A stretch of DNA of 46,698 bases. Source: Muribaculaceae bacterium (lineage in GTDB: Bacteria > Bacillota > Clostridia > Lachnospirales > Lachnospiraceae). A model generated the notes under the pieces. That model was not told the origin of the DNA. It did not search any database and saw nothing but the letters and a program-made list of their open reading frames with translations. A program made the position numbers and the translations under genes. The stretch spans positions 1 through 46,698 of the forward strand of contig JAMPCA010000012.1 of assembly GCA_023666425.1 (NCBI GenBank). Direction: 5' to 3'. Of this stretch, positions 7,646 through 26,208 are shown in pieces. How positions within the stretch are numbered: the stretch's first letter is position 1; each line of letters opens with the position of its first letter.

Positions 7646-7652
7646 GCAAATA

Positions 7653-9752: not shown

Positions 9753-10446
9753 TGATGACTTCCGTTCCGGAGCTTCCGATAAATACCGTGGTAAACATAT
9801 TGACCTCTCTGTCCCGCAGCTCCTTTAAGGTACAGATTTCCGCTTTCGTTTTCTCTCTTCCTATATTTTCGACATAGCCGCAGACGCGCGTCTCCTCTAC
9901 CGCACACAGCAGAAGATCGCACGCGCGCATCAGATAATCTTTCCTTCTGCGGCTGGACGGATTATAAAGTACAATGACAAAATCGCCCTCTGCGGCCGCG
10001 CGCAGCCGTTTTTCAATCCGCTCCCACGGCGTCAGCAAATCGCTCAGGCTTACCGTGCAAAAATCATGGTTCAGCGGAGCCCCCAGAACCGCCGCCCCGC
10101 TGCTCGCCGCCGTGACTCCTGCGATCACATGAAGGGCGGTTCCTGGATATTCCCTCCCGATTTCATACATGAGGGACGCCAGTCCATAGATTCCCGCATC
10201 CCCGCTGCATACCAGAGATACCTTTTTCCCTTTTTGTGCCTCCGCAAAGCAGAGCAGGCATCGCTCCTTCTCTTTGCGCATGGGCGTGGACAACAGCTCT
10301 TTCCCCTGAAAACGACCGCCAAGCAGCTGCAGATAGAATGTATAGCCCACGATCACATCCGACCGGTCTAGCGCATACAACGCCTCCTCCGTCATCATGT
10401 CCTCCCTGCCCGGCCCCATTCCTACGATATAGATTTCATTTTCCAT
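9649..10446 (-). CDS. cbiH: Cobalt-precorrin-3B C17-methyltransferase
   Basis: SAM-dependent tetrapyrrole methylase of the SUMT fold that methylates C17 and drives ring contraction in the anaerobic route. Motifs: IYIVGMGPGREDMMT (N-terminal glycine loop), LVCSGDAGIYGLASL, IAGVTAASSGAAVLGAPLNHDFCTVSLSDLLTPWE, VLYNPSSRRR and TTVFIGSSGTEVINGKLITKRGY. The ATG at 10446 has GGAAGG upstream and overlaps the cbiG end by 11 nt; the more distant ATG (10482) lies inside cbiG. The conserved fold ends around GYQIE, but the frame runs 21 residues further into the start of the CbiJET gene, as if an original stop were lost. Confidence 0.93.
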   Translation of the reverse strand: MENEIYIVGMGPGREDMMTEEALYALDRSDVIVGYTFYLQLLGGRFQGKELLSTPMRKEKERCLLCFAEAQKGKKVSLVCSGDAGIYGLASLMYEIGREYPGTALHVIAGVTAASSGAAVLGAPLNHDFCTVSLSDLLTPWERIEKRLRAAAEGDFVIVLYNPSSRRRKDYLMRACDLLLCAVEETRVCGYVENIGREKTKAEICTLKELRDREVNMFTTVFIGSSGTEVINGKLITKRGYQIERNTDFCRDNRGETIIGVPGGG

Positions 10447-11500: not shown

Positions 11501-12255
11501 ATCTTCCCTTTCCGGTATTCCGTCGAAAAATCCGGCGCATACAGCCTTGACCTGCTGTAATGCCGGTGGGCAATCGCATCTCCGACCAGTATCAAAGCGG
11601 TTTTCGTAATGCCATGCGCTACGGACACGTCATACAGGGTTTCAATGGTACAGACATATGCCTCCTCCTCCGCCCACGTCGCCTTGTAGACAAGCGCCGC
11701 CGGTGTGCTTTTCTCATATCCGCCCGCGATCAGCCTCCGGCTCAATTCCTGAATCCTTCCGGCGCTCAGATAGACGGCCATGGACGCTCTGTGCGCCGCA
11801 AAACTCTCGATGCTTTCCCTGTCCGGCACCTTCGTGCTGCCCTCCATTCTTGTGATAATCAGGGATTGCGAGATTCCCGGCAATGTATATTCCAGATTCA
11901 GGGACGCCGCCGCGCCAAAGCAGGCGCTCACTCCGGGACAGCTCTCATAGGAGATCCCGCGCGCATCCAGCGCATCCATCTGCTCCCTGACCGCCCCGTA
12001 GATGCTCGGCTCTCCCGTATGCAGGCGGACAGTCGTTTTTCCTCCGTCTTCTGCACGAACCATCAGCTGTACCACTTCCTCTAATGTCAGCTTCGCGCTG
12101 TTGTATATCCCGCATTCTTTTTTTGCATACGCAAGCAATTCCGGATTCACCAGAGAGCCGGTATAAATCACCACATCCGCCTGTTCCAGCAGACGCATTC
12201 CCCGAACCGTTATCAGGTCTGCGGCTCCCGTTCCTGCTCCAACAAAATAAACCAT
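11497..12255 (-). CDS. cbiF: Cobalt-precorrin-4 C11-methyltransferase
   Basis: A 252-residue SUMT-fold SAM methyltransferase. VYFVGAGTGAADLITVRG, DVVIYTGSLVNPELL, VRLHTGEPSIYGAVREQMDAL, CPGVSACFGAAASLNLEYTL and LIITRMEG are diagnostic of CbiF/CobM. The start lies within the 3' end of cbiD (43-nt overlap), with GGGGGCGAAAGA as ribosome site, so translation is probably coupled. The product feeds CbiG encoded directly downstream. Confidence 0.95.
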   Translation of the reverse strand: MVYFVGAGTGAADLITVRGMRLLEQADVVIYTGSLVNPELLAYAKKECGIYNSAKLTLEEVVQLMVRAEDGGKTTVRLHTGEPSIYGAVREQMDALDARGISYESCPGVSACFGAAASLNLEYTLPGISQSLIITRMEGSTKVPDRESIESFAAHRASMAVYLSAGRIQELSRRLIAGGYEKSTPAALVYKATWAEEEAYVCTIETLYDVSVAHGITKTALILVGDAIAHRHYSRSRLYAPDFSTEYRKGKI

Positions 12256-13334
12256 TCTTTCGCCCCCTTACTTTTCGCCAGCTCGCCGTATGCATTGGAA
12301 AATAAAATACAGTCCGCCTGCAGATTTCCACCGGCACGTTTTTCCATATAATAGCAGATGCGCTCTGCAATCTGCTCCATAATCTGCGGTAATTTTCCGC
12401 TCTCCTCCAAAAACAAAACCGCTTCCTCCGTAGTCGCACATTCTACTATTTTTCTTACCAGCAAAGGGTCTGCCTGCGCCTTTATGGCAAACGCCGCCAG
12501 AAGCTCCATCCGGCAATCGGCCTCTTTCGAATGCGTATTCATAATGCCTCCGGCAACCTTAATGAGCTTTCCGATGTGACCGGTCAGAAGCATTTTCCGA
12601 AATCCCAGCTCTGCCGCCATGTCAATCACCGCCCCGATAAAATTGCTGCACTTCACACTTTTTTCCAGATCATATCCATAGGTCTTTTTCATAAATTCCA
12701 GGCCGTAATTGCCCGGTGAAACTGCCACATAGTCAAATCCCAGCGCCCTTCTCTGCCGCAATTCCAGCCGGATGGTATCCAGAATCGCCTGAGAGCTCAT
12801 GGGCTCTACGATACCGCTCGTCCCCAGTATGGAAATGCCTCCCACAATGCCAAGCCTCGGGTTAAAGGTACGCGCAGACAGCTCTTCCCCCTCCGGCACA
12901 GAAATCTCAATCCGCAGACTTCCCTGATAATCCGCCAGTCTGCAGACCTCCAGGACTTCTTTTTTTATCATCTCCCGCGGAATGCGGTTGATGGCCGCGC
13001 TTCCAACCGGCTGGTCGAGTCCCGGCCGGGTCACTCTCCCCACGCCGCTTCCTCCCTCAATGAAGATTTCCTGCTTCCCGCTTTTTCCGGCATAGGAGGC
13101 CTTCGCACAGATTCTTGCCCCCGTAGTAATATCGGGATCGTCGCCGCCATCTTTTTCTACCGCACAGCCCGCCTCATGTTCGCCGCACCTGATATCTAAA
13201 ATCTTTGCCTGGTATACAATCCCCTTTGGCGTCTCAATCGCAATCTCTGTCTTTACAAGCCCGGTCAGCAGCATATACGCCGCGGCCTTTGCCGCCGCGG
13301 CCGCACAGCTTCCGGTGGTAAAACCATACCGCAT
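12213..13334 (-). CDS. cbiD: Cobalt-precorrin-5B C1-methyltransferase
   Basis: CbiD methylates C1, a step of the anaerobic route. The protein starts MRYGFTTGSCAAAAAKAA, the hallmark N-terminus. Further marks are EKDGGDDPDITTGARI, GGSGVGRVTRPGLDQPVGSAAINRIPREMI, SILGTSGIVEPMSSQA, SPGNYG and LTGHIGKLIKVAGGIMNTHS. 373 residues, normal length. I prefer the ATG at 13334 (GGGGAGCGAAG before it) over 13376, which lies inside cbiC. The C-terminal ~14 codons overlap cbiF in another frame. Confidence 0.96.
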   Translation of the reverse strand: MRYGFTTGSCAAAAAKAAAYMLLTGLVKTEIAIETPKGIVYQAKILDIRCGEHEAGCAVEKDGGDDPDITTGARICAKASYAGKSGKQEIFIEGGSGVGRVTRPGLDQPVGSAAINRIPREMIKKEVLEVCRLADYQGSLRIEISVPEGEELSARTFNPRLGIVGGISILGTSGIVEPMSSQAILDTIRLELRQRRALGFDYVAVSPGNYGLEFMKKTYGYDLEKSVKCSNFIGAVIDMAAELGFRKMLLTGHIGKLIKVAGGIMNTHSKEADCRMELLAAFAIKAQADPLLVRKIVECATTEEAVLFLEESGKLPQIMEQIAERICYYMEKRAGGNLQADCILFSNAYGELAKSKGAKEWFILLEQEREPQT

Positions 13335-13348
13335 CTTCGCTCCCCTTT

Positions 13349-13984
13349 TCACAACTGATACAACACGGCATTGCAAATTGCCGCGGCAATGCTGCTCCCG
13401 CCTTTTCTCCCTCTGTTGATGATATAGGGAATGTCCGTTTTTAGGATCAGCTCCTTTGCCGCCTCCACGTTGACAAAGCCCACCGGCACGCCGATAATAA
13501 AGGCCGGCCTCCAGCCTGTATGTACTGTCATTTCATACAGTTTTATCAGGGCGGTTGGCGCATTGCCGACTGCAAAAACAAGCGGTTTTTCCATCGCCGC
13601 CGCTTTTTCCATACTGACCGCCGCCCGCGTCACATTCCTCTGCTTTGCCAGAAGCGCAATATCCGCATCTGCCATAAAACAATGTATGTGTCCGCCAAAT
13701 CCTGCAAGCGCGCGTTTATTGACGCCCGCCAGCGCCATATGGGTATCAGTCACGATATCCGCCCCGCTTTTTAGCAGGGTTTTTAAGATTTCCACGGCTC
13801 CGGCGGAATAGCAGAGCGTCTCGGCATAATCGAAATCAGCGCTGGTATGTATCACCCGCTTTGTAATCAGCTCCTCTTCTTTGGGAAGGCTGATCTTTCT
13901 TTTTACAAGCTCCTCCGCAATGATCTCAAAGCTTCGTTTTTCAATCTCCTCCGGAGAAAGCTTCTCTATGTTCAAATACTCCAT
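13349..13984 (-). CDS. cbiC: Cobalt-precorrin-8 methylmutase
   Basis: CbiC moves the methyl group from C11 to C12, giving cobyrinate. 211 residues with VIHTSADFDYAETL (catalytic His in the HTSADF box), DIVTDTHMALAGVN and FIIGVPVGFVNVEAAKE, all standard. GAGGTAGAAC precedes the ATG. It follows cobD by 8 nt and precedes cbiD by 14 nt in the B12 operon. Confidence 0.96.
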   Translation of the reverse strand: MEYLNIEKLSPEEIEKRSFEIIAEELVKRKISLPKEEELITKRVIHTSADFDYAETLCYSAGAVEILKTLLKSGADIVTDTHMALAGVNKRALAGFGGHIHCFMADADIALLAKQRNVTRAAVSMEKAAAMEKPLVFAVGNAPTALIKLYEMTVHTGWRPAFIIGVPVGFVNVEAAKELILKTDIPYIINRGRKGGSSIAAAICNAVLYQL

Positions 13985-13992
13985 GTTCTACC

Positions 13993-15015
13993 TCACAGGG
14001 CGCCTGTTTCCCTGAGTAAAATTTCATTTTCTTTTCTGCTCTTTACCGCAATGCGGTAATAGCCCTTTTTGAGTCCTCTGAAATTACTGCAATCCCTGAT
14101 CAAAATCCCCTTTTCCAGCAGCTTCCCGTACAGGGGAAGTTCACTGTAAACCAGGATAAAATTTGCCATGGACGGAAATACCAGAAGTCCGTGTTCCCGG
14201 AGACGCGCTTCCATAAACTGCCGTTCTTTTTTTACATACTCCTGCGTTTCCAGAATAAACTTTTCCTGTCCGGCGCACAGACAGCCTGCCTCCTGCGCAA
14301 AGCAGGAAAGATTCCATTCGGGCAGCTGCTGTGCGATCTTTGCGCGGACGGCTTTCTTTTTGCATAGCAGATACCCCAAACGCACGCCCGGAATGGAAAA
14401 GATCTTTGTGTACGCCCGCACGAGGATTAAATGCTCCGAGTTTTTAAGCTCCGAAAGCGCGGAAAACGAAGCCCCGCAAAACTCGAGAAAACACTCGTCC
14501 ATAAGCACATAAATTTCTCTGTCCCTGCAATGCCGCAGCAGCTCTCCCATCCTCTCTCTGTCCAGAAGATTTCCCACCGGATTGTTGGGACTGGCAAGAA
14601 AAAGAAGCCCCACATCTTCCGTCAGGATTTGTTTGATATCCTCTTTCACACAAAAGTGATTTTCCGGCTTCATCTCATAATAGAGAATCTCACTGCCTGC
14701 GGATTTTGCGGCGTACTCATACCCATAAAAGGAGGGCACGGGTATCACGATTTTTTTAGGCCGGATTCCATGGACAACTGCCATAAAAAGCTCTGACGCA
14801 CCATTTCCGAACAGCAGATATTCCTCTGGCACGCCAAGAGACGCGCTGACTGCCTTTTTTAATTTCTCCGCTTCCGGATCCGGGTATTGCCCGCATAGGG
14901 AAACGGCCGCGTGAAGCGCATTTTGCACACATTCCGGCGTACCGAGCGGATTCACACTGACGGAAAAATCCATCTTCACATGATTTCTATACACATCGCC
15001 CCCATGAACGCCCAT
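13993..15015 (-). CDS. cobD: L-threonine-O-3-phosphate decarboxylase
   Basis: PLP-dependent fold-type-I enzyme that makes (R)-1-aminopropan-2-ol phosphate, the linker between corrin and nucleotide loop. 340 residues. Marks: HGGDVYR start, DFSVSVNPLGTP, FGNGASELF, LASPNNPVGN, LMDECFLEF (PLP-binding Asp and Tyr/Phe region) and the Schiff-base lysine in VRAYTKIFSIPGVRLGY. It is close to HisC in sequence; the operon context decides for CobD. AAGGAGGACAG precedes the ATG. Confidence 0.9.
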   Translation of the reverse strand: MGVHGGDVYRNHVKMDFSVSVNPLGTPECVQNALHAAVSLCGQYPDPEAEKLKKAVSASLGVPEEYLLFGNGASELFMAVVHGIRPKKIVIPVPSFYGYEYAAKSAGSEILYYEMKPENHFCVKEDIKQILTEDVGLLFLASPNNPVGNLLDRERMGELLRHCRDREIYVLMDECFLEFCGASFSALSELKNSEHLILVRAYTKIFSIPGVRLGYLLCKKKAVRAKIAQQLPEWNLSCFAQEAGCLCAGQEKFILETQEYVKKERQFMEARLREHGLLVFPSMANFILVYSELPLYGKLLEKGILIRDCSNFRGLKKGYYRIAVKSRKENEILLRETGAL

Positions 15016-15030: not shown

Positions 15031-16038
15031 TCACAACATACGCTCTGCCGCCAGCATCGCCAGCAGACATAACACAGCACACAGCCACGCGCTTATGTAC
15101 ATCAGACGGTTCGCCCGCCTGATATCCTCATACTCTGCCCGCCGCACGGCATCTCCGATATACGGCTTCTCGACCATCTTTCCAAAATAGCTGGCAGGCC
15201 CCGCAAGCCTGATGGAAAGAGCGCCGGCACACACCGCCTCTGTCTGTCCGGAATTCGGACTCGCGTGCTTCCTGCGGTCCCTTTTGTAAATCTTCCAGGC
15301 GCCCGTCCCCGAAAAATCACGGCCTGCCAAAAAAGAGGCGGCAAGCATCAGGCAGGCGCTGATTCTCGACGGAAAAAAATTGAAAACATCATCCAGCCTT
15401 GCCGCCGCCCTGCCAAAATACAAATACTTGTCGTTTTTATATCCAACCATGGAATCCATGGTATTAACTGCTTTGTATAAAAAACCAAACACCGGGCCTC
15501 CCAGCGCCAGATACAGCATCGGCGCGATCACCCCGTCAGAGGTGTTCTCCGCCACCGTTTCTACTGCCGCTTTGACAATCCCCTCTTCGTCCAGCCCTTC
15601 CGTATCCCTTCCCACAATCATGGAAACGGCTTGCCCCGCCTGCAAAAGCTCACCATTTTTCAGACACTCATATACCTTCATGCTCTCCACCTTAAGACAT
15701 TTCGCCGCCAGCATCTGGTACGTCATAAGCGTCTCCACCGCAATTCCCACGACGGGATGAATGCGGTATGCTGTCAATAGCAGAACTGCTGTCACTGCCG
15801 TCACACTGACGCTCACCATGCACACCAGTCCGATTCCCTGCCAAAGCTCTCTTTTATTTTGATCCGCCTTTTTTATATTTTCCCTTCTCCCCGTTCCGCG
15901 GAGCATTTTCCCGGCCGCCGTGGTCAGCTTTCCCATCAGTCTGACCGGGTGGGGAAAACAGTAGGGATCTCCTAACAGTAAATCCAGCAGAAACCCCAGC
16001 AGAAATGCGATTGCGTGACAAGTCATACCGGATCTCAT
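15031..16038 (-). CDS. cbiB: Adenosylcobinamide-phosphate synthase
   Basis: Integral membrane enzyme that attaches aminopropanol phosphate to adenosylcobyric acid. 335 residues with four or five hydrophobic segments (near 5-22, 60-85, 200-215, 310-330). Diagnostic motifs: LLGDPYCFPHPVRLMGKL, AVETVAENTSDGVIAPMLYLALGG, KAVNTMDSMVGYKN and SPNSGQTEAVCAGALSIRLAGPA. It overlaps cobC by 4 nt (ATGA), with AGGTGG upstream. Confidence 0.95.
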   Translation of the reverse strand: MRSGMTCHAIAFLLGFLLDLLLGDPYCFPHPVRLMGKLTTAAGKMLRGTGRRENIKKADQNKRELWQGIGLVCMVSVSVTAVTAVLLLTAYRIHPVVGIAVETLMTYQMLAAKCLKVESMKVYECLKNGELLQAGQAVSMIVGRDTEGLDEEGIVKAAVETVAENTSDGVIAPMLYLALGGPVFGFLYKAVNTMDSMVGYKNDKYLYFGRAAARLDDVFNFFPSRISACLMLAASFLAGRDFSGTGAWKIYKRDRRKHASPNSGQTEAVCAGALSIRLAGPASYFGKMVEKPYIGDAVRRAEYEDIRRANRLMYISAWLCAVLCLLAMLAAERML

Positions 16039-16655
16039 AGTTTCGCCACCACCTCTATCTTGATCTTATCCTCCTGCACGTTCTTTCCGGCATTCACACC
16101 CGTCAGTCTGCAGATATAGCCTCCACCGTTTGACGCCTGATAATCAAAATACGCGCCTCCGGCATATGCACTCAGCAATGCCATAATCGTTCCCCCGTGC
16201 ACGACCATTCCCACCGCGGGCGGCCGGGAATGCCTGCGCCCCGCCGTTTCCCGCAATTCCCCGCACATGCAAAAAAAGCCGTTTTTACACCGCCGGATAA
16301 ACGCCTCCCGGCTCTCGCCCCCGGGAAAAGGCAGCGCGCCTCCGCTGTCAATATATTCCTGATAGAACATATTCGTTTTTAGTTCTTCGTAGTTCCTATA
16401 TTCAAACTGTCCGAAATCCATCTCCTTCCACGCAGGAATCCGGACCGGGCACAGCATGGGATATATAATTTTCGCCGAATCCACGCATCTTTTCATGGGG
16501 CTGGAAAACAGATCTTCCACATCCGGATACCGTTTCTGCCTCTTATAGGCCTCCAGTTTTTCAATGCCTTCCTCCGAAAGGGGCTCGTCCGTTTTTCCCA
16601 GATATCTCCGTTCTTTATTTGCCCGCGTTTCCCCATGCCGGATCAATACCAGCAT
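16035..16655 (-). CDS. cobC: Alpha-ribazole phosphatase (histidine phosphatase family)
   Basis: 206 residues of the phosphoglycerate-mutase-like histidine phosphatase superfamily. The phosphorylated His is in LVLIRHGETRANK at the N-terminus; GKTDEPLSEEG, FSSPMKRCVDSA, EMDFGQFEYRNYEEL and the second catalytic His in GMVVHGGTIMAL are present. In the B12 operon the expected job is removing phosphate from alpha-ribazole-5-phosphate or adenosylcobalamin-5-phosphate. The ATG at 16655 shares one base with the mini-CobU stop (TAATG), implying coupled translation; the longer frame to 16742 only adds residues from inside the upstream gene. Confidence 0.88.
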   Translation of the reverse strand: MLVLIRHGETRANKERRYLGKTDEPLSEEGIEKLEAYKRQKRYPDVEDLFSSPMKRCVDSAKIIYPMLCPVRIPAWKEMDFGQFEYRNYEELKTNMFYQEYIDSGGALPFPGGESREAFIRRCKNGFFCMCGELRETAGRRHSRPPAVGMVVHGGTIMALLSAYAGGAYFDYQASNGGGYICRLTGVNAGKNVQEDKIKIEVVAKL

Positions 16656-16990
16656 TATTTGATCTTCTGTCCAATCCCGCATAGGATGCGCTCCACCTCC
16701 TCCGCCCGCCCTGCAAGCTGTACCAGAATCCGTCCCACACATTCTCTGTACTCCCTCTCAAACGGTTCCACCGGAACGATTCCATTTCCAATCTCATCGC
16801 AGATAATGATACAGTCTTCGTGGCTGTCCACATAGGACATAATCTCCGCCTCCGGGCAGCCCCCGCTCTCCATGCGCCGCCTGACCCACTGGTGAAGACG
16901 GTTGACAATCACCACATTTTCTTGCGAGGCATATTTATTTACCACATACTCCAGTTTTCCCTGCGCCGCTCCGCCGATGACCAATTTCAC
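16655..16990 (-). CDS. Mini-CobU: short adenosylcobinamide kinase-like protein
   Basis: 111 residues, against about 180 for normal CobU. It begins with a degenerate P-loop (KLVIGGAAQGKLEYV; the usual final GKS/T is GKL) and ends with the CobU C-terminal signature (CDEIGNGIVPVEPFEREYRECVG, then CGIGQKIK). The central region that holds the guanylylated histidine and the ECLTTxxxN stretch is missing. The GTG start at 16990 overlaps the cobS stop by 4 nt (GTGA) and has AGAGGGCTGGGAAC upstream; 213 nt of open frame before it lie inside cobS and are a shadow. A full CobU gene lies just upstream, so this is a paralogue with a partial active site. Regulatory, ligand-binding or partner roles are possible; none is proven. 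Confidence 0.75.
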   Translation of the reverse strand: MKLVIGGAAQGKLEYVVNKYASQENVVIVNRLHQWVRRRMESGGCPEAEIMSYVDSHEDCIIICDEIGNGIVPVEPFEREYRECVGRILVQLAGRAEEVERILCGIGQKIK

Positions 16991-17769
16991 GTTCCCAGCC
17001 CTCTTTCCATAAAAATATTGATAAACGCTGCGGCCGCTGTTATACAGACCTCGCAGAGAAGTATGAAATATCCCGACGTGTCGCCGGTGATTCCCCCAAA
17101 TTCCTTCCTGCTCCGATAGAAATAGCAGGCAAGCGCCAGCAACGCCGCCGCCGCACTCACAAGGCCTGCAAAACGTGACCAGAAGCACATCAGGCCAATA
17201 CATGCCATACCCTGCAGGCCAAGCGCGCCCTTCACGATTTTCTTATGAGAACAGCCTGCAACGGCTGAAAGCATCCCGTCCTTCTTTGCCAGCGGAAAGG
17301 AAACGGCACTGAGGCCGCACAGACAGCGCGACAGGAAAAAACCGGCGCACACGATTTTTAACAGCGCTTCCTCTTTGACCTCTGAGAACGCCCCCAAAAA
17401 GACCAGACCATAAACCGCAAGCAGGATCGCCGCAAATGCCCCGATATGGGAATCCTTTAGAATCTCCAGTTTTCTTTCCCTTGAACGGTAGGAATGTATG
17501 GCGTCCATGGTATCCATAAAGCCGTCGGCATGAAAGCCGCCCGTAAGAAAGACAGGAATCGCCACAGCAATCGCCGCCCTGCACAGACCGCCGATCTGAT
17601 ATATGCGGCACAGCCAGCTCCAGAAATAGATACAGCCGCCAATCAGCGCCCCCACCCACGGGAAAAAACAAAACACATATTTCATATCCTCCTCTTTCCA
17701 TGCAAACCGGCGCACCGGAATGACGGAATACATGGATACCGCGATTAAAAATGATTTTATTATTTGCAT
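16987..17769 (-). CDS. cobS: Adenosylcobinamide-GDP ribazoletransferase
   Basis: Polytopic membrane enzyme that joins adenosylcobinamide-GDP and alpha-ribazole(-phosphate) to complete the nucleotide loop. 260 residues with about six hydrophobic segments. The signature TGGFHADGFMDTMDA (metal-binding HxDGxxDTxDA) lies near residue 82; RKLEILKDSHIGAFA and GGITGDTSGY are also conserved. The ATG at 17769 has GGGGGAAAGG upstream, so the longer start at 17796 is rejected. It lies between cobU and the mini-CobU. Confidence 0.94.
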   Translation of the reverse strand: MQIIKSFLIAVSMYSVIPVRRFAWKEEDMKYVFCFFPWVGALIGGCIYFWSWLCRIYQIGGLCRAAIAVAIPVFLTGGFHADGFMDTMDAIHSYRSRERKLEILKDSHIGAFAAILLAVYGLVFLGAFSEVKEEALLKIVCAGFFLSRCLCGLSAVSFPLAKKDGMLSAVAGCSHKKIVKGALGLQGMACIGLMCFWSRFAGLVSAAAALLALACYFYRSRKEFGGITGDTSGYFILLCEVCITAAAAFINIFMERGLGT

Positions 17770-17796
17770 GATTCCTTTCCCCCGTGCCATCTGCAC

Positions 17797-18348
17797 TCAC
17801 GATTCCTTTAGCATCAACGGGATCCCTGCCACCACTTCCACTACATTTTCCGCAAGTGCCGCCAGTCTCTGGTTGATTTTTCCCATCGCCCGTATGTAGG
17901 CCATGGTCGTTTCATCATAGACTACGCCGTCTTCAAACACATTGTCGCTGACCACGACAAGATGCGTTGTCTGCTCCCGCAAAAGCCCGATCTCCCCTGT
18001 GATTCGTTCTGTGACCTGTTGTTCTGTCCTGACCGCTCCCCCGGGAAACATTTCATTTGCGGTAAGGTTCGAGAGACATTCCAGCAAAACCGTCCGCTCC
18101 CCCTCCGCCATCTTTTCCAGCGCGCCGGAAATGGCTGCGGGCTGCTCGATTGTTAAAAAGCCTTTTCCTGCCCGCAGCCGCCTGTGCTTTTCCACTTTTC
18201 GCTTTCCTTCCCCGTCAAAAACCTGCATCGTTGCAAGATAATATTTCTTCATCGCAGAGCCCGCTCCCTCCTGCGCCAGAGCCACCGCCGTTGTCTCCGC
18301 GTAAGAGGATTTCCCGCTTCCGCTTCCTCCAAGCACCAAAACCATCAT
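17797..18348 (-). CDS. cobU: Adenosylcobinamide kinase / guanylyltransferase
   Basis: 183 residues. N-terminal P-loop VLGGSGSGKSSYAE, the basic KHRRLR carrying the histidine expected to be guanylylated, and LLECLSNLTANEMF are the CobU marks. It phosphorylates adenosylcobinamide and transfers GMP to it. The segment normally reading TNEVGxGIVP is altered here to SDNVFEDGVVYDETTMAYI, and the usual GIGxKIK end is replaced by AGIPLMLKES. Those two C-terminal signatures are instead kept in the mini-CobU two genes downstream. The start overlaps the cobT stop by 4 nt. Confidence 0.88.
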   Translation of the reverse strand: MMVLVLGGSGSGKSSYAETTAVALAQEGAGSAMKKYYLATMQVFDGEGKRKVEKHRRLRAGKGFLTIEQPAAISGALEKMAEGERTVLLECLSNLTANEMFPGGAVRTEQQVTERITGEIGLLREQTTHLVVVSDNVFEDGVVYDETTMAYIRAMGKINQRLAALAENVVEVVAGIPLMLKES

Positions 18349-19445
18349 GTCTGTCCATACCTCTCATACTGCTTTAGCCGGATATCGGAAAAGAGAACGC
18401 CCCTGCGGTAGACGGACAACGCCATTTCCAAAAGCGAGAGCATCATCACCGCGCCCGTGCCCTCCCCCAGCGCCATTTCCGCGTTTATCACAGGCTCCAG
18501 GTTTAGCGCGGTTAGCAGCTGCTCCACCGCCGGTTCTTTTCCCTTGTGCGACGGGATCAGATACGCGATTGTCCCCTGCACAATTCTTTCTGCAAGCAAG
18601 GCCGCTGTCAGGCTGATCACACCGTCGAGCACGACCGGGATATGAAACATGCCCCCGCCGATGCAAACGCCCGCAAGCCCCGCAATGTCCAGTCCCCCGA
18701 CGCTCTTTAGTACGGTGAGCGGTCCGGCGTGACAGAGTCCGTATTTTTGAACTGCATCCGCAATCACCTTCTTCTTCTTCTGCAATCGTTCATCGCAAAG
18801 GCCGGCGCCTCTTCCTGTCACCGCATCCACCTCACACCCCAACAGCGCCGCCGCCAGTGCGCTGCTCGTCGTCGTATTCCCGATTCCCATCTCCCCGGTC
18901 GCAAGAATCTGAAATCCGTTCTTTTTACAGTCTTCCACGATTTCTATACCGGTAAAAATTGCCCGGATGGCCTCCTCTTCCGTCATTGCCGGTTCTTTGT
19001 TAAAATTTCGGGTTCCGCGGCGGATTTTTCTGTCGAGGACTCCCGCAATCGGTTCTTTTTGATTGATTCCAATATCCACCGGAATGGTTTTTACCCCGGC
19101 CGCGGCCGCCATGCTTCCCACGGACGATGCGCCCCTGCCCATCTGCTCTGCGACTGCCGCCGTGACTTCCTGCCCGGACTGGCTTACGCCCTCCTCCACG
19201 ATTCCATTGTCCGCGCACATGATGATGAGCGCCTTTTTGGAAAGGTCGATATTGTCCGTGCCGAGGATGGCTCCTGTCTGCGCAATGAGCTTCTCGAATC
19301 TTCCCATCCCGTCCAGGGGCTTTGCTATGGAATCCCAGTTTTTCAGTACCTTTTCATATATTCTGCAATCCGGCGGCTCCAGCACCAGCTCCTTAAGCAT
19401 CTGCTCTGCAGGGCGTCCGGATCTCTGCCTCTTTAAGTATTCCAT
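18345..19445 (-). CDS. cobT: Nicotinate-nucleotide-dimethylbenzimidazole phosphoribosyltransferase
   Basis: CobT activates the lower-ligand base as alpha-ribazole phosphate. 366 residues; conserved marks: [75 protein letters not shown] and the catalytic-glutamate region [16 protein letters not shown]. The ATG at 19445 is preceded by GGAGGAGATCT and overlaps the cbiP 3' end by 53 nt. No lower-ligand synthesis genes are visible, so the base specificity cannot be told from the window. Confidence 0.95.
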
Positions 19446-20892
19446 AGATCTCCTCCATGTTCAGATATTCTGATAAAACATCTGCCAGATGATCATACTG
19501 TTTTTCTTTGAACGCCTGATAATCCATGCAGGATATATCCGCAGATAAAGCTTTCTTCTCCGCCAGTGCCTGCACGAGGGCTGCCGCCACCCTGCCGCGG
19601 TCAAAAATCCCGTGAATATATGTTCCGCATACATTTTTATTTTTCCCGGTCACAAAGACGGCTTTTTCCGAAGGCTCCTGCGGGTTCTCCGCGCTGTCGC
19701 CCATATGGATCTCATAGCCGTCAAACGCAAGCCCGGACAGCACGGAAAAAAATCCTTCCATTTGATTTACTGTTCCATGCACCTGACGGCGCACCTTTTC
19801 ATCTTTCAATTCTGTAGTGACATGCAGCAGACCCATGCCCTTCATGCTTCCGCCGCACTCCACTCCCCCGGGGTCAGAAATCTCCTCACCCAGCATCTGG
19901 TATCCGCCGCAGATCCCGCAGACCGGTATCTGTTCCGCCAGTTTTATTACCGCCGCCTCCAGCCCGTTGCCGCGCATCCAGCCGAGGTCGCTCATGGTAT
20001 TCTTGCTGCCCGGCAGAAAAATGATATCCGGAAAGCCCAGTTCCTCCGCCAGCGCAACATAGCGCACAGACGCTTCCGGTATCTGCTCAAACACATTGAA
20101 ATCCGTAAAATTGGAGATCCGCGGATAGCGGATAACCGCAAGATCAATTGTCCCACGTTCCTTTTTCCGGAAGCGGTCTGTCAGGCTGTCCTCGTCCTCT
20201 AACTGTAGATCCATATAGGGGACGACGCCCGCGACCTTTATGCCGCCCTTTTCCTCCAGTATCCGGATGCCGGGCTCCAGCAGGGAGCGGTCTCCCCGGA
20301 ATTTGTTGATGACCAGTCCCCGGACGCGCGCCCGCTCTTCCTCTGTCAGCAGCATCAGCGTTCCCAAAAGCTGTGCAAATACGCCTCCTCTGTCAATATC
20401 GCCGACCAGCAGTACCGGGGCGTCCACAAGCTCTGCCAGCCCCATATTGACGATATCATTTTCGCGCAGATTGATCTCCGCCGGACTTCCGGCCCCCTCG
20501 ATCACAATGATATCCGCCAGCTCCTCCAGCTTCCGGAAGGCGCTTACGATAGCGGGAAGCAGCCTGCGCTTGTAAGAAAAATACTCCCGCGCACTCATAT
20601 TTCCCAGCACCCGCCCGTTGACAATGACCTGCGAGCCTGTATGGTCTGTCGGTTTTAACAAAACCGGATTCATGCAGACCAGCGGCGCCAGCCCTGCCGC
20701 TTCCGCCTGCATGACCTGCGCCCTTCCCATCTCAAGCCCTTCCTCTGTGACAAAAGAATTGAGTGCCATATTCTGCGACTTAAAGGGCGCCACCCGGTAT
20801 CCGTCCCGCTTCATAAGCCTGCATAAGCCCGCGGTCAAAAGGCTCTTTCCCGCGCCGGACATGGTTCCCTGAATCATAATCGTCTTTGCCAT
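19393..20892 (-). CDS. cbiP: Cobyric acid synthase (glutamine-hydrolysing)
   Basis: CbiP/CobQ amidates the b, d, e and g side chains of adenosylcobyrinate a,c-diamide. 499 residues. N-terminal ATP domain: [45 protein letters not shown] and [12 protein letters not shown]-terminal glutaminase: [12 protein letters not shown], nucleophile in [15 protein letters not shown] and GTYIHGIFD. Of the two tandem ATGs I take the second, six bases after GAGAGG. It starts 10 nt after the ABC ATPase stop, so the transport genes and biosynthesis genes are one operon. Confidence 0.95.
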
Positions 20893-20902
20893 CATTTCCC
20901 TC

Positions 20903-21691
20903 TCAATATGCGCCCAGCTGTTCGATATACGAAAGCATCTTCTCATTTCCCCGAAAGTCTGCTTTATCAATATCAAATAGGCGTTCTATAAAATCCGATT
21001 CGAAAATCTCTTCCGGCGTCCCGTAGCGTTCCACATATTCGCCTTTCAGGCAGAGGATTTTATCGGAAACAATCTTTGCAAAAGCAAGCTCGTGCAGCGA
21101 CATGATGACGGTCAGCCCTCTTTTTTCCCGCAGCTCCTGCAATAATGATAAAAATTCAAGCTTATATTTGACGTCCAGATAAGAGGTCGGCTCATCCAGT
21201 ATCACGACCTCCGGCTCCTGGCAGATGGCTCTCGCCAGCATGACTCTCTGCTTCTGGCCGTCGCTGATCCGGCTGAAATCCTTTTCGCTGATATCTGTTA
21301 TGTGCGTAAGCTCCATCACTTCGCGCACGATTTTCTCATCCTCATCTGTCAGTATGCCAAACCAGCCGGTATAGGGATAACGCCCGGACGCCACCATATC
21401 CCTGCAGCTTTTCAGTTCCGCCTTTACTTTCTCCGTGAACACGACGGACATTTTTTTCGCAAGTGCAGACGGCCGCACCCTGGAGATATCCTCCTCCCCA
21501 ATATACGCTGTTCCCCCAAGCATCCGGAGCTGTCCGGCAATACTTTTTAAAACCGTAGATTTTCCTGCGCCGTTTGCGCCGATCAGGCATAAAATTTCTC
21601 CCTTCGGCAGCGCGATTTCGATATCTTTTATCAGTGGCTGACTGTCATAGCCCACACACATTTTTTTCGTAAAAAAATAGTAATTCTTCAT
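20903..21691 (-). CDS. FecE/BtuD-type ABC transporter ATPase
   Basis: 262-residue ATPase of the iron-siderophore/B12/haem importer family. Walker [15 protein letters not shown] near residue 38, signature-like [16 protein letters not shown] (the usual LSGG is ISDG), Walker [13 protein letters not shown] and H-loop SLHELAFA. The ATG at 21691 overlaps the permease stop by 4 nt and has AAAAGGG upstream; the 94-codon extension of the frame is inside the permease gene. It energises import together with the permease and binding protein encoded upstream, probably of a corrinoid, cobalt complex or haem-like compound. Confidence 0.9.
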
Positions 21692-22698
21692 GCTTTTTTC
21701 CCTTTTATGATCCAGAGCACTACCGGCGCGCCAAAAATAGCCGTCACTGTGCTGATGCTCAGTTCTGTCGGCGCAAGCACGGTCTTTGCAATCAGATCGC
21801 AGAAGAGGCAAAAAGCGCTCCCCCCGGCAAAGCAGGCGGGTATCATCAAAATTGGTTCTGTGGTATGCAGCAGCTTTTTGACCAGATGCGGCACGGCGAT
21901 TCCGACAAAGGATACCGGCCCCGCAAACGCCACGATGCACGCGGACAAGAGGCTGGAAAAAATCACAAGGCACACGCGCAGAAGCTGCAGATTAACCCCC
22001 ACACTGTGCGCGTAGGCGTCTCCCAGCTGGTATGCGCCAAGCGGCTTTGCCATAAGAAAAACCGCAAGAAACACTGCAAAAACCACAAGAGTCATAATCT
22101 TTACGCTCTCCCATGTCATTCCCGAAAAGCTTCCCCGCGACCAGTTGTGGAGATTGACAATGTCTGCGTCGCTGGCAAAGGTAACGACCAGCTCTGTGAC
22201 CGCCGAACAGATGTAGCCGATCATAACTCCGCTGACCACCAGCATGGACATATGATGAACCCGGTGGGACATCAGCAATACAAATCCCATCGACAGCATG
22301 GCTCCGGTAAACGCCGCCACGATCATGGCCGGCGAGGTCACCCGGACGCCTCTTCCCATAAAAAAGACCATCACAAGCGCCACCACCATTTTTGCCCCGG
22401 AGGAAATTCCCAAAACAAACGGCCCCGCAATCGGATTATTAAAAAATGTCTGCAAAAGATAGCCGGCAAGTGAAAGCGCGCCGCCGAGCACCAGCACTGC
22501 CGCCGCCCGGGGAAGCCGGATATCCCGCAGGATCCTTGCGATCGTCTCATCTCCCTCCTGCCCCCCGAATACTGCCGCCAGCTCCGGCAATGCAATCCCG
22601 ACACTTCCAATGCAAATGTTCAAAATAAAAAAGAGAAACACGCAGGCGCCAAGCAGAAGGAACGCCGTCATGTATCTGCGTTTTCTGTTATGCTCCAT
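21688..22698 (-). CDS. FecCD-type ABC transporter permease
   Basis: 336 residues, about nine or ten transmembrane segments, typical of BtuC/FecCD. Conserved LPRAAAVLVLGGALSLAGYLLQTFFNNPIAGPFVLGISSGA, GVMIGYICSAVTELV, WSRGSFSG and the cytoplasmic coupling loop VGIAVPHLVKKLL. GGGGGGATTCC precedes the ATG. It forms a transporter with the adjoining ATPase and the lipoprotein binding protein. Only one permease gene is present, so the channel is probably a homodimer as in BtuC2D2. Confidence 0.92.
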   Translation of the reverse strand: MEHNRKRRYMTAFLLLGACVFLFFILNICIGSVGIALPELAAVFGGQEGDETIARILRDIRLPRAAAVLVLGGALSLAGYLLQTFFNNPIAGPFVLGISSGAKMVVALVMVFFMGRGVRVTSPAMIVAAFTGAMLSMGFVLLMSHRVHHMSMLVVSGVMIGYICSAVTELVVTFASDADIVNLHNWSRGSFSGMTWESVKIMTLVVFAVFLAVFLMAKPLGAYQLGDAYAHSVGVNLQLLRVCLVIFSSLLSACIVAFAGPVSFVGIAVPHLVKKLLHTTEPILMIPACFAGGSAFCLFCDLIAKTVLAPTELSISTVTAIFGAPVVLWIIKGKKA

Positions 22699-22722
22699 GG
22701 AATCCCCCCTTCCGCCAGCCCG

Positions 22723-24609
22723 TCAGTCCAGATGGTAAAGATAGTGCATCGCATCCTTTTTTCCCTGCAGCATTGCATGGATATCCTCAATGATATATCC
22801 GATTGCAAGAGACTGCTGGTACATGTCGTTTGTGGTACACCAGACATTCCCGTTCTGCACTGCCTTAAAATCCGCCAGCAGCGCGCATTTGTCCACCAGC
22901 TCCTCCACACTGGAAACACCGCCGTCGATGGAGCTGTTATATATCAAAAAATCCGCATCCTTTGCGCCGGCATAGAATTCTTCTACCTGCATATTCAGGG
23001 TCGAGCGCCTTGTTTCAGGATCACCCAGATTCGGAAAAATATAGCTGCCTCCCGCAAGCCCGATCATCTTCGGCACATAATCAGAGGACTGGCGCACCTG
23101 CACCATGCCATTGGCTGTAATAAAAAAGAACGCGACCGTCTGATCTGTTTTTTCGGCTGCGCTTACGCTCTCAAGAATGGCCTCCTGATCCGCAAATATT
23201 CTCTCTGCCTCCTCTTCCTTTCCCAGAAGCGCCCCGTAAAATTTCACCCACTCCACCCTGCCAAGCGGATGCTGCTCATAGCTGGAATAGTCGATCATAA
23301 CGGGAATTCCAAAGCTCTCCAGATTTTCCATGACCTCCGGCGCGTGTGAAATCATCATGTTTTCGATGGCAAATGCACAGTCGCCGGAAAGCAAGATCTC
23401 GTAATCCGGCTGGTTGTATTTGCCCGCGTAGAGGATATTTCCCTTATGCATTTCCTCTCTGGCTTCCCCAATAAACCAGCCTTCCTCCTTTTGCCCTGAA
23501 AATGCAATGGTATCCAGTCCACCGAGTTCGCAAAACATGTCCATGGCAGAGGACGCCACCAGATAGATGTCCTTTACGGGACGCTTTAAGACCACAGTTT
23601 CTTTGTCCAAAGCCTGCGGCACTTCTTTCTCCTCCGGCACAAGCAACAGCCGTGTGCCGTCCATGGGAGTGCCCAGAAGAACATAGCCGCCCCCATAATA
23701 ATCGACTGTAAAATTTTGGGCATACTGCAATTCCATGCTTCCCTCATAAACCAGCGAGGGCACTGCCGTACCGGAATGAAATGTGACCGTATACTCGATT
23801 TCATGGGGTCTGCTCATCGCCACGGTATCGCCGATGACCACCACCGGCTCATCAAATGCAGGAACGGGAATCTCAAAGACAGAATCCCCCTCTGCATTGA
23901 CCGGCAGATATTTTTCTCCCCCTACGATCATATAATCATAATTCGGACTGCTCCACTGCACGGTCGCCGTCGCTTTTCCATCTGCCATACAAACAGACAC
24001 GGGGGATAAGATTTCCGCCTTTCCGCTCCCTCCCTCAAAAGTAATGTCCATGAGATATGTACCATTCTCCAGAGAAACCTCTTCATTTTGCTCATCCTGT
24101 TCCAGCGGCTGCGGATTTGAAACACGAACCTTATGGTCATACCATTTGCCTTTTGTTCCGACCAGCGCCAGATCGAATTCTGCATCCAGCACGGGAACGG
24201 GCACATCAAAACCGTAGACCTCCTCTGTCATGCCGTCGCTGTATGTCACGGTATCCTCTGTCGGGACAAGCAGCCCGGCTCCTTCTTTTGCCGCATCCTC
24301 TGCCAGCCCGGGATAAAGATTCAGGATGTTCTTTGAGGCGAGTGTAATATGGATCGTCATTTCCCCGTTTTCTACCGTCAGCGTTCCCTTGTTTTCATAT
24401 GCTTCATTGACGTGAAACATACTGCTGTCCGTTGTAAACTCTGCCGTATAAACACCGTCCGCCAGCTGCACCCCTGCGGCATCCGCGGCCACGGCATTCT
24501 CCGCATCTGCGGCCACGGCATTCTCCGCATCTGCTGTATGCTTGTCCACTCCACAACCGCACAGCAGGAGTATCGAAAGAAATGCAAGGACTGTTATGTA
24601 TTTTTTCAT
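22723..24609 (-). CDS. Lipoprotein substrate-binding protein with two NEAT-like repeats
   Basis: 628 residues, about twice a normal BtuF. Signal peptide with lipobox LLCGC (Cys19), so anchored outside the membrane. A low-complexity Ala/Asp linker (~24-48) follows, then two related beta-rich modules (~49-165 and ~170-285). Each has a DGxY start, an internal DGxxT and an IPVPxFD or VPVPVLD strand near the end, as in iron-transport-associated/NEAT-like domains. Residues ~330-620 form a class-III periplasmic binding fold (KDIYLVASSAMDMFCELGGLDTIAF, VMENLESFGIPVMIDYSS, DADFLIYNSS). NEAT domains bind haem, so a tetrapyrrole ligand (corrinoid, haem or porphyrin) is a reasonable inference. GGAGGCGAAGC precedes the ATG. 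Gene order places it between cbiK and the permease, under the cobalamin riboswitch. Confidence 0.8.
   Translation of the reverse strand: MKKYITVLAFLSILLLCGCGVDKHTADAENAVAADAENAVAADAAGVQLADGVYTAEFTTDSSMFHVNEAYENKGTLTVENGEMTIHITLASKNILNLYPGLAEDAAKEGAGLLVPTEDTVTYSDGMTEEVYGFDVPVPVLDAEFDLALVGTKGKWYDHKVRVSNPQPLEQDEQNEEVSLENGTYLMDITFEGGSGKAEILSPVSVCMADGKATATVQWSSPNYDYMIVGGEKYLPVNAEGDSVFEIPVPAFDEPVVVIGDTVAMSRPHEIEYTVTFHSGTAVPSLVYEGSMELQYAQNFTVDYYGGGYVLLGTPMDGTRLLLVPEEKEVPQALDKETVVLKRPVKDIYLVASSAMDMFCELGGLDTIAFSGQKEEGWFIGEAREEMHKGNILYAGKYNQPDYEILLSGDCAFAIENMMISHAPEVMENLESFGIPVMIDYSSYEQHPLGRVEWVKFYGALLGKEEEAERIFADQEAILESVSAAEKTDQTVAFFFITANGMVQVRQSSDYVPKMIGLAGGSYIFPNLGDPETRRSTLNMQVEEFYAGAKDADFLIYNSSIDGGVSSVEELVDKCALLADFKAVQNGNVWCTTNDMYQQSLAIGYIIEDIHAMLQGKKDAMHYLYHLD
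24481..24528. repeat. Two 24-bp tandem repeats in the lipoprotein linker
   Basis: Two direct copies of a 24-bp unit (24481-24504 and 24505-24528, one C/T difference) plus a partial third. They encode DAENAVAA twice in the flexible linker after the lipobox. Copy number could vary between strains without shifting frame. Confidence 0.85.
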
Positions 24610-24625
24610 GCTTCGCCTCCGCCCG

Positions 24626-25783
24626 TTACTCCTGCATTACATCCGCCGTATGCTGTACATAGAGCTCCTGAATGGCTTCAATGGAACCAAGCCCCGCAAT
24701 CTGTACCTCTACACTCTCGAAACTCCCGGAAGCCTCAAACATACTGAGCCAGGAATCCTCCTCTTCTCCTGCCATGTCGTTGTTGGCGTGATCGCCTGCC
24801 ACCACCATCAGCGGACGGAGAATCACTTTGGTATAACCGGCCTGCTTCACAGCGTCGATGACGGCCTCGCAGGCAGTCTCCTCCGGATCGCCCTCCACCG
24901 TGCCGATAAACACATTCTTATATCCCAGCGCATCCATCTGCGACTGCATCTGGCTGTAGGATACCTTCGCCGTATGGAACGTCCCATGCCCCATAAACAC
25001 AAATGCTGCACCGTCCTCCACCGCCGCATGTAGATCCTCATATCCGGCGTCCTTTACCGCCGTCTCCGTGAGTGCCTTTGCAACAATCTCTTTATCCGCA
25101 TTGATCACCGTGGCGTCCGTGCCAACCTCGCCGAGAAGCGGCTCTGCAACCTTTACAGTCTCAAAGCGGTCTTTGTATGCTTCAACGGCTTCCATCAGCT
25201 CGTCATATTCTGCCCCATGCATCAGATGCGTCGGCTGTACGACTAAATTCTTCACTCCATTTGCCACCGCGCGCTCCAGCGCCTGCTGCGTATTGTCGAT
25301 GAACTCCCCGTCGCGCGCCTGCACATGATTGATAATAATCTGCGCTGTAAAAGCCCTTCGCACCGACCAGCCGGGATTGGCGGCTGCAATGGCATCCTCA
25401 ATGCCCCTGATGTCGTCTGCCCGGCTGCCGTTGAAGGAAGTTCCGAAGCTGACGACCAGTATTTCATTCTCTCCGATATCATCCTGATTGCGCGGATCGT
25501 CCTTCGACGCGTCACCCGTATCCCTGCCAAAATAATCGGGGTCGGCTTCTTCCCCTTCCACCAGCGCTTTCTGCGCATCCGTCAGCGCGTCCCACGCCTC
25601 TTTGGCCTGCGCACACTGCGCATCGGTATCCTCTGTCCACTCCTGCACATAAATGGCGTCAATCAGCGCGGCGACCTGATCCGCCGCTTCCTGATCCGAC
25701 ACTGCCTCCTTCGTACAGCCGGTCAATACACATGCGCCGGTCAGGACGCCCGCCAATAAGGTAACTGCTACTTTCTTTTTCAT
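24626..25783 (-). CDS. cbiK: Lipoprotein-type cobaltochelatase CbiK
   Basis: 385 residues, about 120 more than cytosolic CbiK. A signal peptide ends in lipobox VLTGC (Cys23). Residues ~30-75 are a short helical module ending WDALTDAQKALVEG, then an acidic linker. From ~107 the chelatase fold runs EILVVSFGTSFNGSRADDIRGIEDAI, with candidate metal-binding histidines in QPTHLMHGAEYDE and in FMGHGTFHTAKVSY, and the EPLLGEVG segment between them. CbiK inserts Co2+ into sirohydrochlorin in the cytosol, whereas this version is exported and tethered, as in the periplasmic CbiK of Desulfovibrio. It is the first gene after the riboswitch, with AGGAGAGAAC before the ATG. It may instead bind or load cobalt or haem for the adjoining transporter. 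Confidence 0.85.
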   Translation of the reverse strand: MKKKVAVTLLAGVLTGACVLTGCTKEAVSDQEAADQVAALIDAIYVQEWTEDTDAQCAQAKEAWDALTDAQKALVEGEEADPDYFGRDTGDASKDDPRNQDDIGENEILVVSFGTSFNGSRADDIRGIEDAIAAANPGWSVRRAFTAQIIINHVQARDGEFIDNTQQALERAVANGVKNLVVQPTHLMHGAEYDELMEAVEAYKDRFETVKVAEPLLGEVGTDATVINADKEIVAKALTETAVKDAGYEDLHAAVEDGAAFVFMGHGTFHTAKVSYSQMQSQMDALGYKNVFIGTVEGDPEETACEAVIDAVKQAGYTKVILRPLMVVAGDHANNDMAGEEEDSWLSMFEASGSFESVEVQIAGLGSIEAIQELYVQHTADVMQE

Positions 25784-25822: not shown

Positions 25823-25861
25823 TAAAAAAATCCTTTACCATAACATAACTACGGTAAAGGA
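25823..25861 (-). terminator. Riboswitch-controlled intrinsic terminator
   Basis: On the minus strand TCCTTTACC, a 13-nt loop, then GGTAAAGGA (perfect 9-bp stem), followed by seven T. It sits between the cobalamin aptamer and cbiK, about 40 nt before the start codon, where a transcription-attenuating expression platform would be. Confidence 0.85.
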
Positions 25862-25927: not shown

Positions 25928-25977
25928 TCTCAAACGTACAACCAGTTACTCGTGGTCTGAAACAAATGTTTCCGTAC

Positions 25978-26162
25978 AGCATTCAGGCAGGTCTCCCGGC
26001 TTATAGATCATCGCATCCGCCGTCTTCCCAGTCTCCCAGTGACATATTGGCCTCTGCTCCCTAATTACGGTGACGAGTTCGTACAGGATTTGCACCTGTT
26101 TCCCTTTTCACCAAAACCAGCGCTTATTTTCCTTTCACGCGCTGGTTTGACACCTGTATGCT
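25978..26162 (-). promoter_or_regulatory. Cobalamin riboswitch aptamer
   Basis: The minus strand shows all conserved blocks in order: ACAGGTGTC; a long hairpin AAACCAGCGC / GCGCTGGTTT; AAAAGGGAAACAGGTGCAAA with TCCTGTACGAACTCGTCACC; TCACTGGGAGACTGGGAAG; and the B12 box AAGCCGGGAGACCTGCC. The outer P1 helix pairs AGCATACAGG (26162-26153) with CCTGAATGCT (25987-25978), one mismatch. Adenosylcobalamin or another cobalamin should favour the terminator downstream and shut off the 20-kb operon. Confidence 0.95.
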
Positions 26163-26180
26163 TCTATTCAATTGTACAAA

Positions 26181-26208
26181 AGTATAACATATTTTTTCTT
26201 AATGTCAA
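26181..26208 (-). promoter_or_regulatory. Sigma-A-type promoter of the cobalamin operon
   Basis: Minus strand: -35 TTGACA (26208-26203), 16-bp spacer, -10 TATACT (26186-26181). Transcription would start about 10 nt before the riboswitch P1 helix. This is the only strong promoter seen for the operon. Confidence 0.8.

Follow-up and report, generated by a model that had tools for sequence, protein, structure and literature searches.

How do gut bacteria in which the early part of B12 ring synthesis is gone come by a ring on which their remaining corrin enzymes can act? The question is raised by a 46,698-nucleotide stretch of DNA from a Muribaculaceae bacterium that GTDB places in the Lachnospiraceae (assembly GCA_023666425.1, contig JAMPCA010000012.1, positions 1 to 46,698; referred to here as the window), in which a B12 operon on the minus strand opens with four genes for an exported chelatase, a lipoprotein with NEAT and substrate-binding domains, and an importer. 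The module formed by these genes is real and conserved, and a function can be proposed for it with good comparative support: it is probably a salvage system, repressed by cobalamin, for a ready-made tetrapyrrole ring that is metallated outside the cell by the chelatase CbiK and imported for corrin assembly. As such, it offers a testable answer to the question of ring supply. The head of the operon is made up as follows:

26181..26208, minus strand: sigma-70-like promoter (TTGACA-16-TATACT) ahead of the riboswitch, 11 of 12 consensus positions, a consensus match only
25969..26172, minus strand: cobalamin riboswitch aptamer, RF00174 (101.8 bits, E 1.9e-24)
25831..25861, minus strand: intrinsic-terminator-like hairpin of 14 pairs with a T run, between riboswitch and cbiK, a consensus match only
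24626..25783, minus strand: CbiK, predicted exported lipoprotein and class II chelatase, 385 residues (PF06180, 236 bits; lipobox at Cys23)
22723..24609, minus strand: 628-residue lipoprotein with NEAT1, NEAT2 and a class III substrate-binding domain (lipobox at Cys19; fold and profile comparisons)
24112..24465, minus strand: NEAT1, residues 49-166 of that protein (Pfam NEAT in 20 of 40 family members, fold comparison, conservation)
23770..24072, minus strand: NEAT2, residues 180-280
22726..23763, minus strand: binding-protein domain, residues 283-628
21688..22698, minus strand: FecCD/BtuC-type permease, 336 residues (profile match)
20903..21691, minus strand: ATP-binding cassette (ABC) ATPase, 262 residues counted from the likely ATG (profile match)

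The riboswitch, the four genes behind it and their order had been named in the original prediction and are confirmed. The gaps between cbiK, the 628-residue lipoprotein gene, the permease gene, the ATPase gene and cbiP measure 16, 24, -4 and 10 bases, and the four-gene module is followed in the window by 14 further B12 genes. Peripla_BP_2, FecCD and ABC_tran domains occur together in the operon, which identifies a class III (FecCD-type) ABC importer.

The PF06180 score of CbiK lies above the cut-off of 26.2 bits and places the protein in the class II chelatase family. Glu175 is a catalytic residue of CbiK. The active-site motifs MGHG, VEGDPE and GDHANND, which like the two lipoboxes had already been picked out by eye, align with MGHG, VESYPE and GDHAIND of Salmonella CbiK (1qgo), and His145 and His207 are catalytic in CbiK (PMC7689651). 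Relatives were compared in 80 named loci from GTDB genomes, the best 80 of at least 520 that matched NEAT2 or binding-domain peptide patterns. Patterns for the three motifs were matched in 74, 72 and 77 of the 78 CbiK open reading frames (ORFs) in these loci, and a lipobox pattern was found in 60 of 78 CbiK, 59 of 76 NEAT and 36 of 70 binding-protein ORFs. Many of the lipobox misses, chiefly in Blautia, look signal-peptide-like at the N-terminus by eye, and one CbiK ORF (L065) has no such N-terminus. In a tree of the CbiK core from 87 sequences, 76 exported rows, the window's among them, fall on one side of a branch with support 100/99, in a tree whose bootstrap had not settled and whose deep placements are made unsure by five long rows (including L008, entered as unlinked although it is linked and signal-bearing). 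Judged by sequence, exported CbiK is a separate lineage.

The repeats of the 628-residue protein had been called NEAT-like. Pfam NEAT (PF05031) gives 20.1 bits on the whole protein and 24.8 bits on a fragment, below the cut-off of 32.8, and it matches 20 of 40 members of the family at E 0.01 (best 7.3e-8). Fold comparison finds the NEAT beta-sandwich in both repeats, and the name is upheld. Compared by sequence with solved structures, the protein returns two rows, at E 0.42 and 0.67, of which one is the NEAT protein 3sik, and the A1 profile search returns one row, a binding protein (E 7e-5). The usual haem-binding motif of NEAT domains is YxxxY. In the 40-member alignment, W-Y-D-H-x-V is invariant at the end of NEAT1, and the last hairpin of NEAT2 carries a conserved M..P-H-E-x-x-Y, with His in 36 and Tyr in 38 of the 40 members. 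In a register not based on structure, the YxxxY position thus appears as YDHxV in NEAT1 and HxxxY in NEAT2, and the metal ligands of the two domains may be Tyr/His instead of the usual Tyr pair.

Gene order is kept across the 80 loci. CbiK stands directly ahead of NEAT in 76 of them, in a set chosen by NEAT and binding-protein patterns that cannot measure how often CbiK lacks the module, and within that set the linkage is not the sporadic one that would have spoken against the original prediction. The binding protein is followed by FecCD in 73 loci, FecCD by the ATPase in 69, and the ATPase by a corrin gene in 45. Each of the 14 loci scanned for riboswitches has one of the B12 class (13 RF00174, one RF01482), and in all 14 the next module gene is CbiK, with a frame that starts at most 242 bases past the aptamer. 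The parts are also found as single chains: NEAT-NEAT-binding protein as in the window, CbiK-NEAT-NEAT in relatives P0135, P0163 and P0212, and CbiK-NEAT-NEAT-binding protein in P0050, P0052 and P0109. At three loci, two from Faecalibacterium and one from an Oscillospiraceae (L105:12863-14773, L109 and L098), the importer ATPase and CbiD form one open frame, and the best 120 of 3569 homologues of this fusion all contain both domains. Import is tied to ring building in these organisms because the importer ATPase is covalently joined to a corrin-ring methyltransferase.

What the window's genome (98.1% complete, 28 contigs) retains of the ring pathway defines the problem that such a system would solve. 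PF06180 matches a single gene in the whole genome, the exported CbiK. CbiX was considered as an alternative internal chelatase and rejected, as the sole PF01903 match sits inside that same CbiK. Profile searches of the genome found neither HemB nor CbiL, the best CbiL-profile match (E 5.9e-8) not being listed over the cut-off. There are five tetrapyrrole methylases, of which four are assigned as CbiF, CbiH, CbiE and CobA, and the fifth is taken, by elimination, for RsmI. The ring pathway runs from CbiH onward and is broken just before it. An internally made precursor would not be metallated by the sole CbiK, because that CbiK is predicted to lie outside the membrane and there is no CbiX, unless an internal route is provided by SirC, which is related to CysG and Met8, enzymes with chelatase activity; nor would it be methylated at C20, because there is no CbiL. 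The pathway could use a ring that comes in with its metal and its C20 methyl group in place.

In the anaerobic pathway, sirohydrochlorin is converted by CbiK to cobalt-factor II, by CbiL to cobalt-factor III, and is then passed to CbiH (PMC7242693). In the proposed mechanism, the NEAT domains would capture an external ring of the sirohydrochlorin type at the cell surface, the exported CbiK would put cobalt into it outside the cell, the NEAT/binding-protein lipoprotein would pass it to the FecCD permease and ATPase, and the remaining corrin enzymes would complete the cobamide inside. In genomes without CbiL, the window's included, the ring should enter at the 20-methyl stage, as factor III or as cobalt-factor III, the substrate of CbiH, and for strains that keep CbiL, sirohydrochlorin or its cobalt form would suffice. 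Here we infer the ligand, the metal, the direction of chelation, the order of hand-over and the repression of the module by cobalamin, and CbiK may load cobalt, swap another metal for cobalt or strip a metal.

If the module supplies the ring, it should accompany the loss of the early steps. This was examined in 200 family genomes, each genus being represented once, by searches for CbiK, the 628-residue protein, HemB, CbiD, CbiX, CobA, CbiM and CbiL. A CbiK with no listed NEAT or binding-protein match within 2 kb on the same contig and strand was called unlinked and read as cytoplasmic. The N-termini of ten CbiK loci (L003-L012) were inspected for the topology of unlinked copies, and G058, G121 and G186 have unlinked copies with long, exported-like frames. 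Counts of linkage may be too low, as they refer to the matches listed for the 628-residue protein. A weak HemB match in G149 (24.1 bits) was dropped from the 64 HemB genomes, and G062, G009 and G011 were counted as having CbiL despite scores under the cut-off.

CbiD was found in 120 of the 200 genomes. Among the 54 in which the module occurs without any unlinked CbiK (module-only), HemB is present in 7, CobA in 17 and CbiL in 28 (absent from 47, 37 and 26), and 20 lack all three. The 40 genomes with unlinked CbiK alone have these genes in 28, 38 and 40 cases (absent from 12, 2 and 0), the 23 with both have them in 17, 22 and 21, and the three with neither in 1, 0 and 2. The module is present in 28 of the 29 genomes without CbiL, and linked CbiK is the only kind in 43 of 67 CbiD genomes without HemB. 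The same trend is seen in a quality subset of 83 genomes (at least 95% complete, at most 5% contaminated): HemB, CobA and CbiL occur in 5, 12 and 18 of 36 module-only genomes, in 12, 15 and 15 of 15 with both, and in 22, 30 and 32 of 32 with unlinked CbiK only. As to the copies themselves, linked CbiK falls into two length classes, and in one near-complete genome two CbiK frames of exported length lie in tandem (G102:C1:1337230-1339991), with an unlinked copy in addition.

Kinship was controlled for with a FastTree protein tree of all 120 CbiD sequences as a stand-in for species relations, on which each trait changes 17 to 27 times. In the 22 path-independent pairs that differ in unlinked CbiK, HemB is missing together with unlinked CbiK in 13, the reverse holds in 1, and 8 are tied (sign test, p 0.002). 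CobA agrees in 12 pairs, with 1 against and 9 tied, and CbiL in 9, with none against and 13 tied. The module is found only in the partner without unlinked CbiK in 13 of these pairs and only in the other in none (9 tied). Where 17 pairs differ in CbiL, the partner without it has the module in all 17 and exclusively in 5; where 26 differ in HemB, unlinked CbiK is confined to the HemB-bearing partner in 16 and to the HemB-less one in 1.

Individual genomes, judged by the number and type of their tetrapyrrole methylases, give a similar picture. Two complete genomes, Faecalibacterium I4-1-79 and Lachnospiraceae GAM79, have four methylases each and neither CobA nor CbiL by this count: NCBIfam assigns CbiF, CbiH, CbiE and RsmI in the former and CbiF, CbiH and RsmI in the latter, whose fourth methylase is taken for CbiE from its position beside CbiH. 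Neither enzyme was found in F. prausnitzii ATCC 27768 or Butyrivibrio FCS014, with types read solely from how many methylases there are and where they lie (for FCS014, also from one 24-bit fragment). With one gene scanned in each and the rest judged by position, Pseudoflavonifractor MSJ-37 has CbiL and seemingly lacks CobA, and Parablautia muri has HemC-CobA and seemingly lacks CbiL. Blautia Marseille-P3087 and Sellimonas caecigallum have both CobA and CbiL.

Several observations weigh against ring salvage. The window's CbiK reaches 185 bits in the sirohydrochlorin cobaltochelatase equivalog NF047852, short of the cut-off of 400. In fold comparison, siderophore, molybdate and haem binders come out level for the binding domain, and neither fold comparison singles out a ligand. 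HemB is kept in 7 of the 54 module-only genomes, HemB, CobA and CbiL all together in 4, and no CbiK was found in 5; 14 of the 67 CbiD genomes without HemB have no NEAT or binding-protein match, and all calls of absence depend on the assemblies. On the other side of the balance, external cobalt insertion predicts the loss of a cobalt importer, and a short-frame CbiM occurs in 0 of 54 module-only genomes versus 31 of 63 with unlinked CbiK, at a cut of 330 residues set after the data had been seen (33 of 63 in a hand-picked list); with CbiM of any type the figures are 10 of 54 and 37 of 63. Against it, the window's genome itself has a long CbiM/N-Q-O type transporter that may or may not serve cobalt. 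It also keeps HemC, a CobA-HemD fusion and SirC (HemC and HemD were looked for in the loci around CobA). A pure ring scavenger would have no use for these three except in making siroheme, which is perhaps their role. Adjoining this sirC-hemC-cobA/hemD cluster, and divergent from it, are a DUF4430 protein and a frame without a Pfam match (L023:6149-7100, minus strand, on contig G000:C11 of the same genome). The latter has by eye the look of an S component of an energy-coupling factor transporter, and it is possible that the pair imports an early tetrapyrrole precursor or a corrinoid.

A bolder version of ring salvage can be put forward tentatively. In this version, the B12 pathway would have shifted its first metal step to outside the cell; strains without CbiL would share factor III as a nutrient, which lipoprotein CbiK would turn into cobalt-factor III on the cell surface for import straight to CbiH, with channelling where the ATPase is fused to CbiD. 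To our knowledge, factor III (20-methyl-sirohydrochlorin) is known as a pathway intermediate and not as a traded metabolite. The same version would re-explain the Iht (Fet) system of Porphyromonas gingivalis as salvage of a corrin precursor instead of haem iron uptake. The CbiK homologue of that system goes by two names, IhtB and FetB, which we take to be one protein. It is a lipoprotein that works with the binding protein IhtC, the permease IhtD and the ATPase IhtE (PMC10913741; FetB, PMC13402209), so that an exported CbiK-family lipoprotein and a binding-protein ABC importer are common to Iht and the module, and the steps that lead to precorrin-2 are said to be absent from P. gingivalis as well (PMC6461909). 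Iht differs in having a TonB receptor, a partner not to be expected of a Gram-positive bacterium, and in being discussed as a haem/iron system (PMC10913741), with FetB as a maker of Mn-porphyrin (PMC13402209), and no NEAT domain is named in the available text of either paper. The module, unlike Iht, is under cobalamin riboswitch control and its operon continues into corrin genes.

An alternative possibility, though an unlikely one, is that the module itself takes up haem iron, with NEAT binding haem, the CbiK-like lipoprotein removing iron as proposed for IhtB (PMC10913741), and the transporter importing iron or the ring. The NEAT fold is closest to haem-binding NEATs, the part list resembles that of Iht, and FetB (9b86, 133.2 bits) stands ahead of Salmonella CbiK (127.3 bits) among the solved structures nearest to the window's CbiK, in a near tie. 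Haem iron uptake would not, however, predict a cobalamin-class riboswitch in every locus scanned, a corrin gene after the ATPase in 45 of 80 loci, the ATPase-CbiD fusion, or the joint loss of HemB, CobA, CbiL and unlinked CbiK. Isd-type systems take up haem through NEAT domains in Gram-positive bacteria. Compared with these, the module has its NEAT domains on the chelatase or the binding protein, an altered YxxxY motif and a place in a B12 operon.

It is improbable that the module acquires cobalt only, with exported CbiK and binding protein trapping the metal and the FecCD system replacing CbiMNQO as importer. The lack of short-frame CbiM from all module-only genomes would fit, as would the report of cbiK-bearing delta-proteobacteria without a then-known cobalt transporter, although cbtX was put forward there as a further candidate (PMC545781). 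Cobalt imported in this way would nevertheless meet no internal chelatase in the 43 of 67 HemB-less genomes that have only linked CbiK, and neither the NEAT domains nor the absence of ring steps would be accounted for. The original prediction had proposed surface capture of a tetrapyrrole or cobalt as opposed to plain B12 uptake; its interpretation is supported, in that the tetrapyrrole part stands with the module tracking the loss of early steps and of unlinked CbiK, and delivery of cobalt alone is weakened.

Slightly harder still to credit is ordinary uptake of cobamides or cobinamide by a BtuFCD system with an accessory CbiK. BtuC is the best NCBIfam model of the permease, though at 203.7 bits against a cut-off of 334, and the ATPase reaches 157.4 of the 537 bits asked of a corrinoid ATPase; BtuF is not among the best 50 rows of the binding-domain fold comparison, which excludes nothing. 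CbiK is periplasmic in Desulfovibrio. There, cbiK-cbiL and btuCDF lie under one B12 element (PMC545781), an arrangement that shares with the module a chelatase and a B12-type importer under a B12 riboswitch. In line with plain uptake, transporters of B12 are known to stand under this riboswitch (PMC545781). Desulfovibrio, unlike the module, has cbiL beside cbiK, its de novo pathway is reported as almost complete, and the available text mentions no NEAT domain (PMC545781). An importer of finished corrinoids would not need CbiH, CbiF and the other ring enzymes kept in the window's operon and the two complete genomes, and the retention of CbiK motifs in 72 to 77 of 78 ORFs and the fusion of CbiK to NEAT and binding-protein domains also speak against it.

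Very little speaks for the view that the enzymes only seem to be missing, through gaps in the assemblies or sequence divergence, and that exported CbiK assists an ordinary pathway inside the cell. Drafts in many contigs are common among the survey genomes and some kept CbiL copies score close to the cut-off, but the pattern persists in the 83 best genomes and the tree-independent pairs, and the absence of CobA and CbiL persists in two complete genomes.

Ring salvage through this module joins elements that are partly in print, namely precursor salvage (PMC6461909) and exported CbiK-like chelatases (IhtB/FetB; PMC10913741, PMC13402209). Tetrapyrrole precursor salvagers, mostly Firmicutes, have corrin ring genes but are missing at least one early step, as here (PMC6461909), and precorrin-2 salvagers are among the classes of salvagers (PMC8123684). 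Such salvage was predicted from genomes and verified for 5-aminolevulinic acid in three species; no importer, surface chelatase or entry route for a whole ring is named in the available text (PMC6461909). The module is a concrete candidate for that route, and loss here can extend past CobA to CbiL. A literature search, with most subscription journals outside its coverage, found no titles or abstract openings in which CbiK occurs with NEAT domains, nor salvage joined with an exported chelatase, NEAT domains, B12 control and CbiL loss. The module is widespread and riboswitch-associated in Lachnospiraceae, Blautia, Butyrivibrio and Faecalibacterium, and if ring salvage holds, gut B12 ecology gains a new traded intermediate. 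There is also a consequence for annotation. The P1 gene list of PMC6593275 begins at CbiK, and rules that start there miss earlier gaps as well as the difference between exported and internal CbiK, and could class some scavengers as producers. The module is a direct handle on ring-scavenging cobamide makers.

The operon continues from the module with the following genes:

19393..20892, minus strand: CbiP, cobyric acid synthase (profile match; the start is the likely one)
18345..19445, minus strand: CobT
17797..18348, minus strand: CobU
16987..17796, minus strand: CobS
16035..16742, minus strand: CobC-like histidine phosphatase
15031..16038, minus strand: CbiB
13993..15015, minus strand: CobD-like aminotransferase
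13349..13984, minus strand: CbiC
12213..13376, minus strand: CbiD
11497..12255, minus strand: CbiF (TIGR01465, 310.7 bits)
10436..11500, minus strand: CbiG
9649..10482, minus strand: CbiH, the first ring enzyme past the missing CbiL (TIGR01466, 287.3 bits)
7653..9752, minus strand: CbiJ-CbiE-CbiT fusion
6248..7681, minus strand: CbiA-type amidating synthase

A second CobU-like frame (16655-17203, minus strand), possibly a remnant, overlaps both cobS and the cobC-like gene at their ends and resembles the C-terminal part of CobU over its residues 83-181. Immediately upstream of the riboswitch lie a protein with no Pfam or NCBIfam match (26339-26959, minus strand) and a TIGR04076 family protein (27008-27427, minus strand), and past the end of the cluster there is a DUF3793 protein (3355-3906, minus strand).

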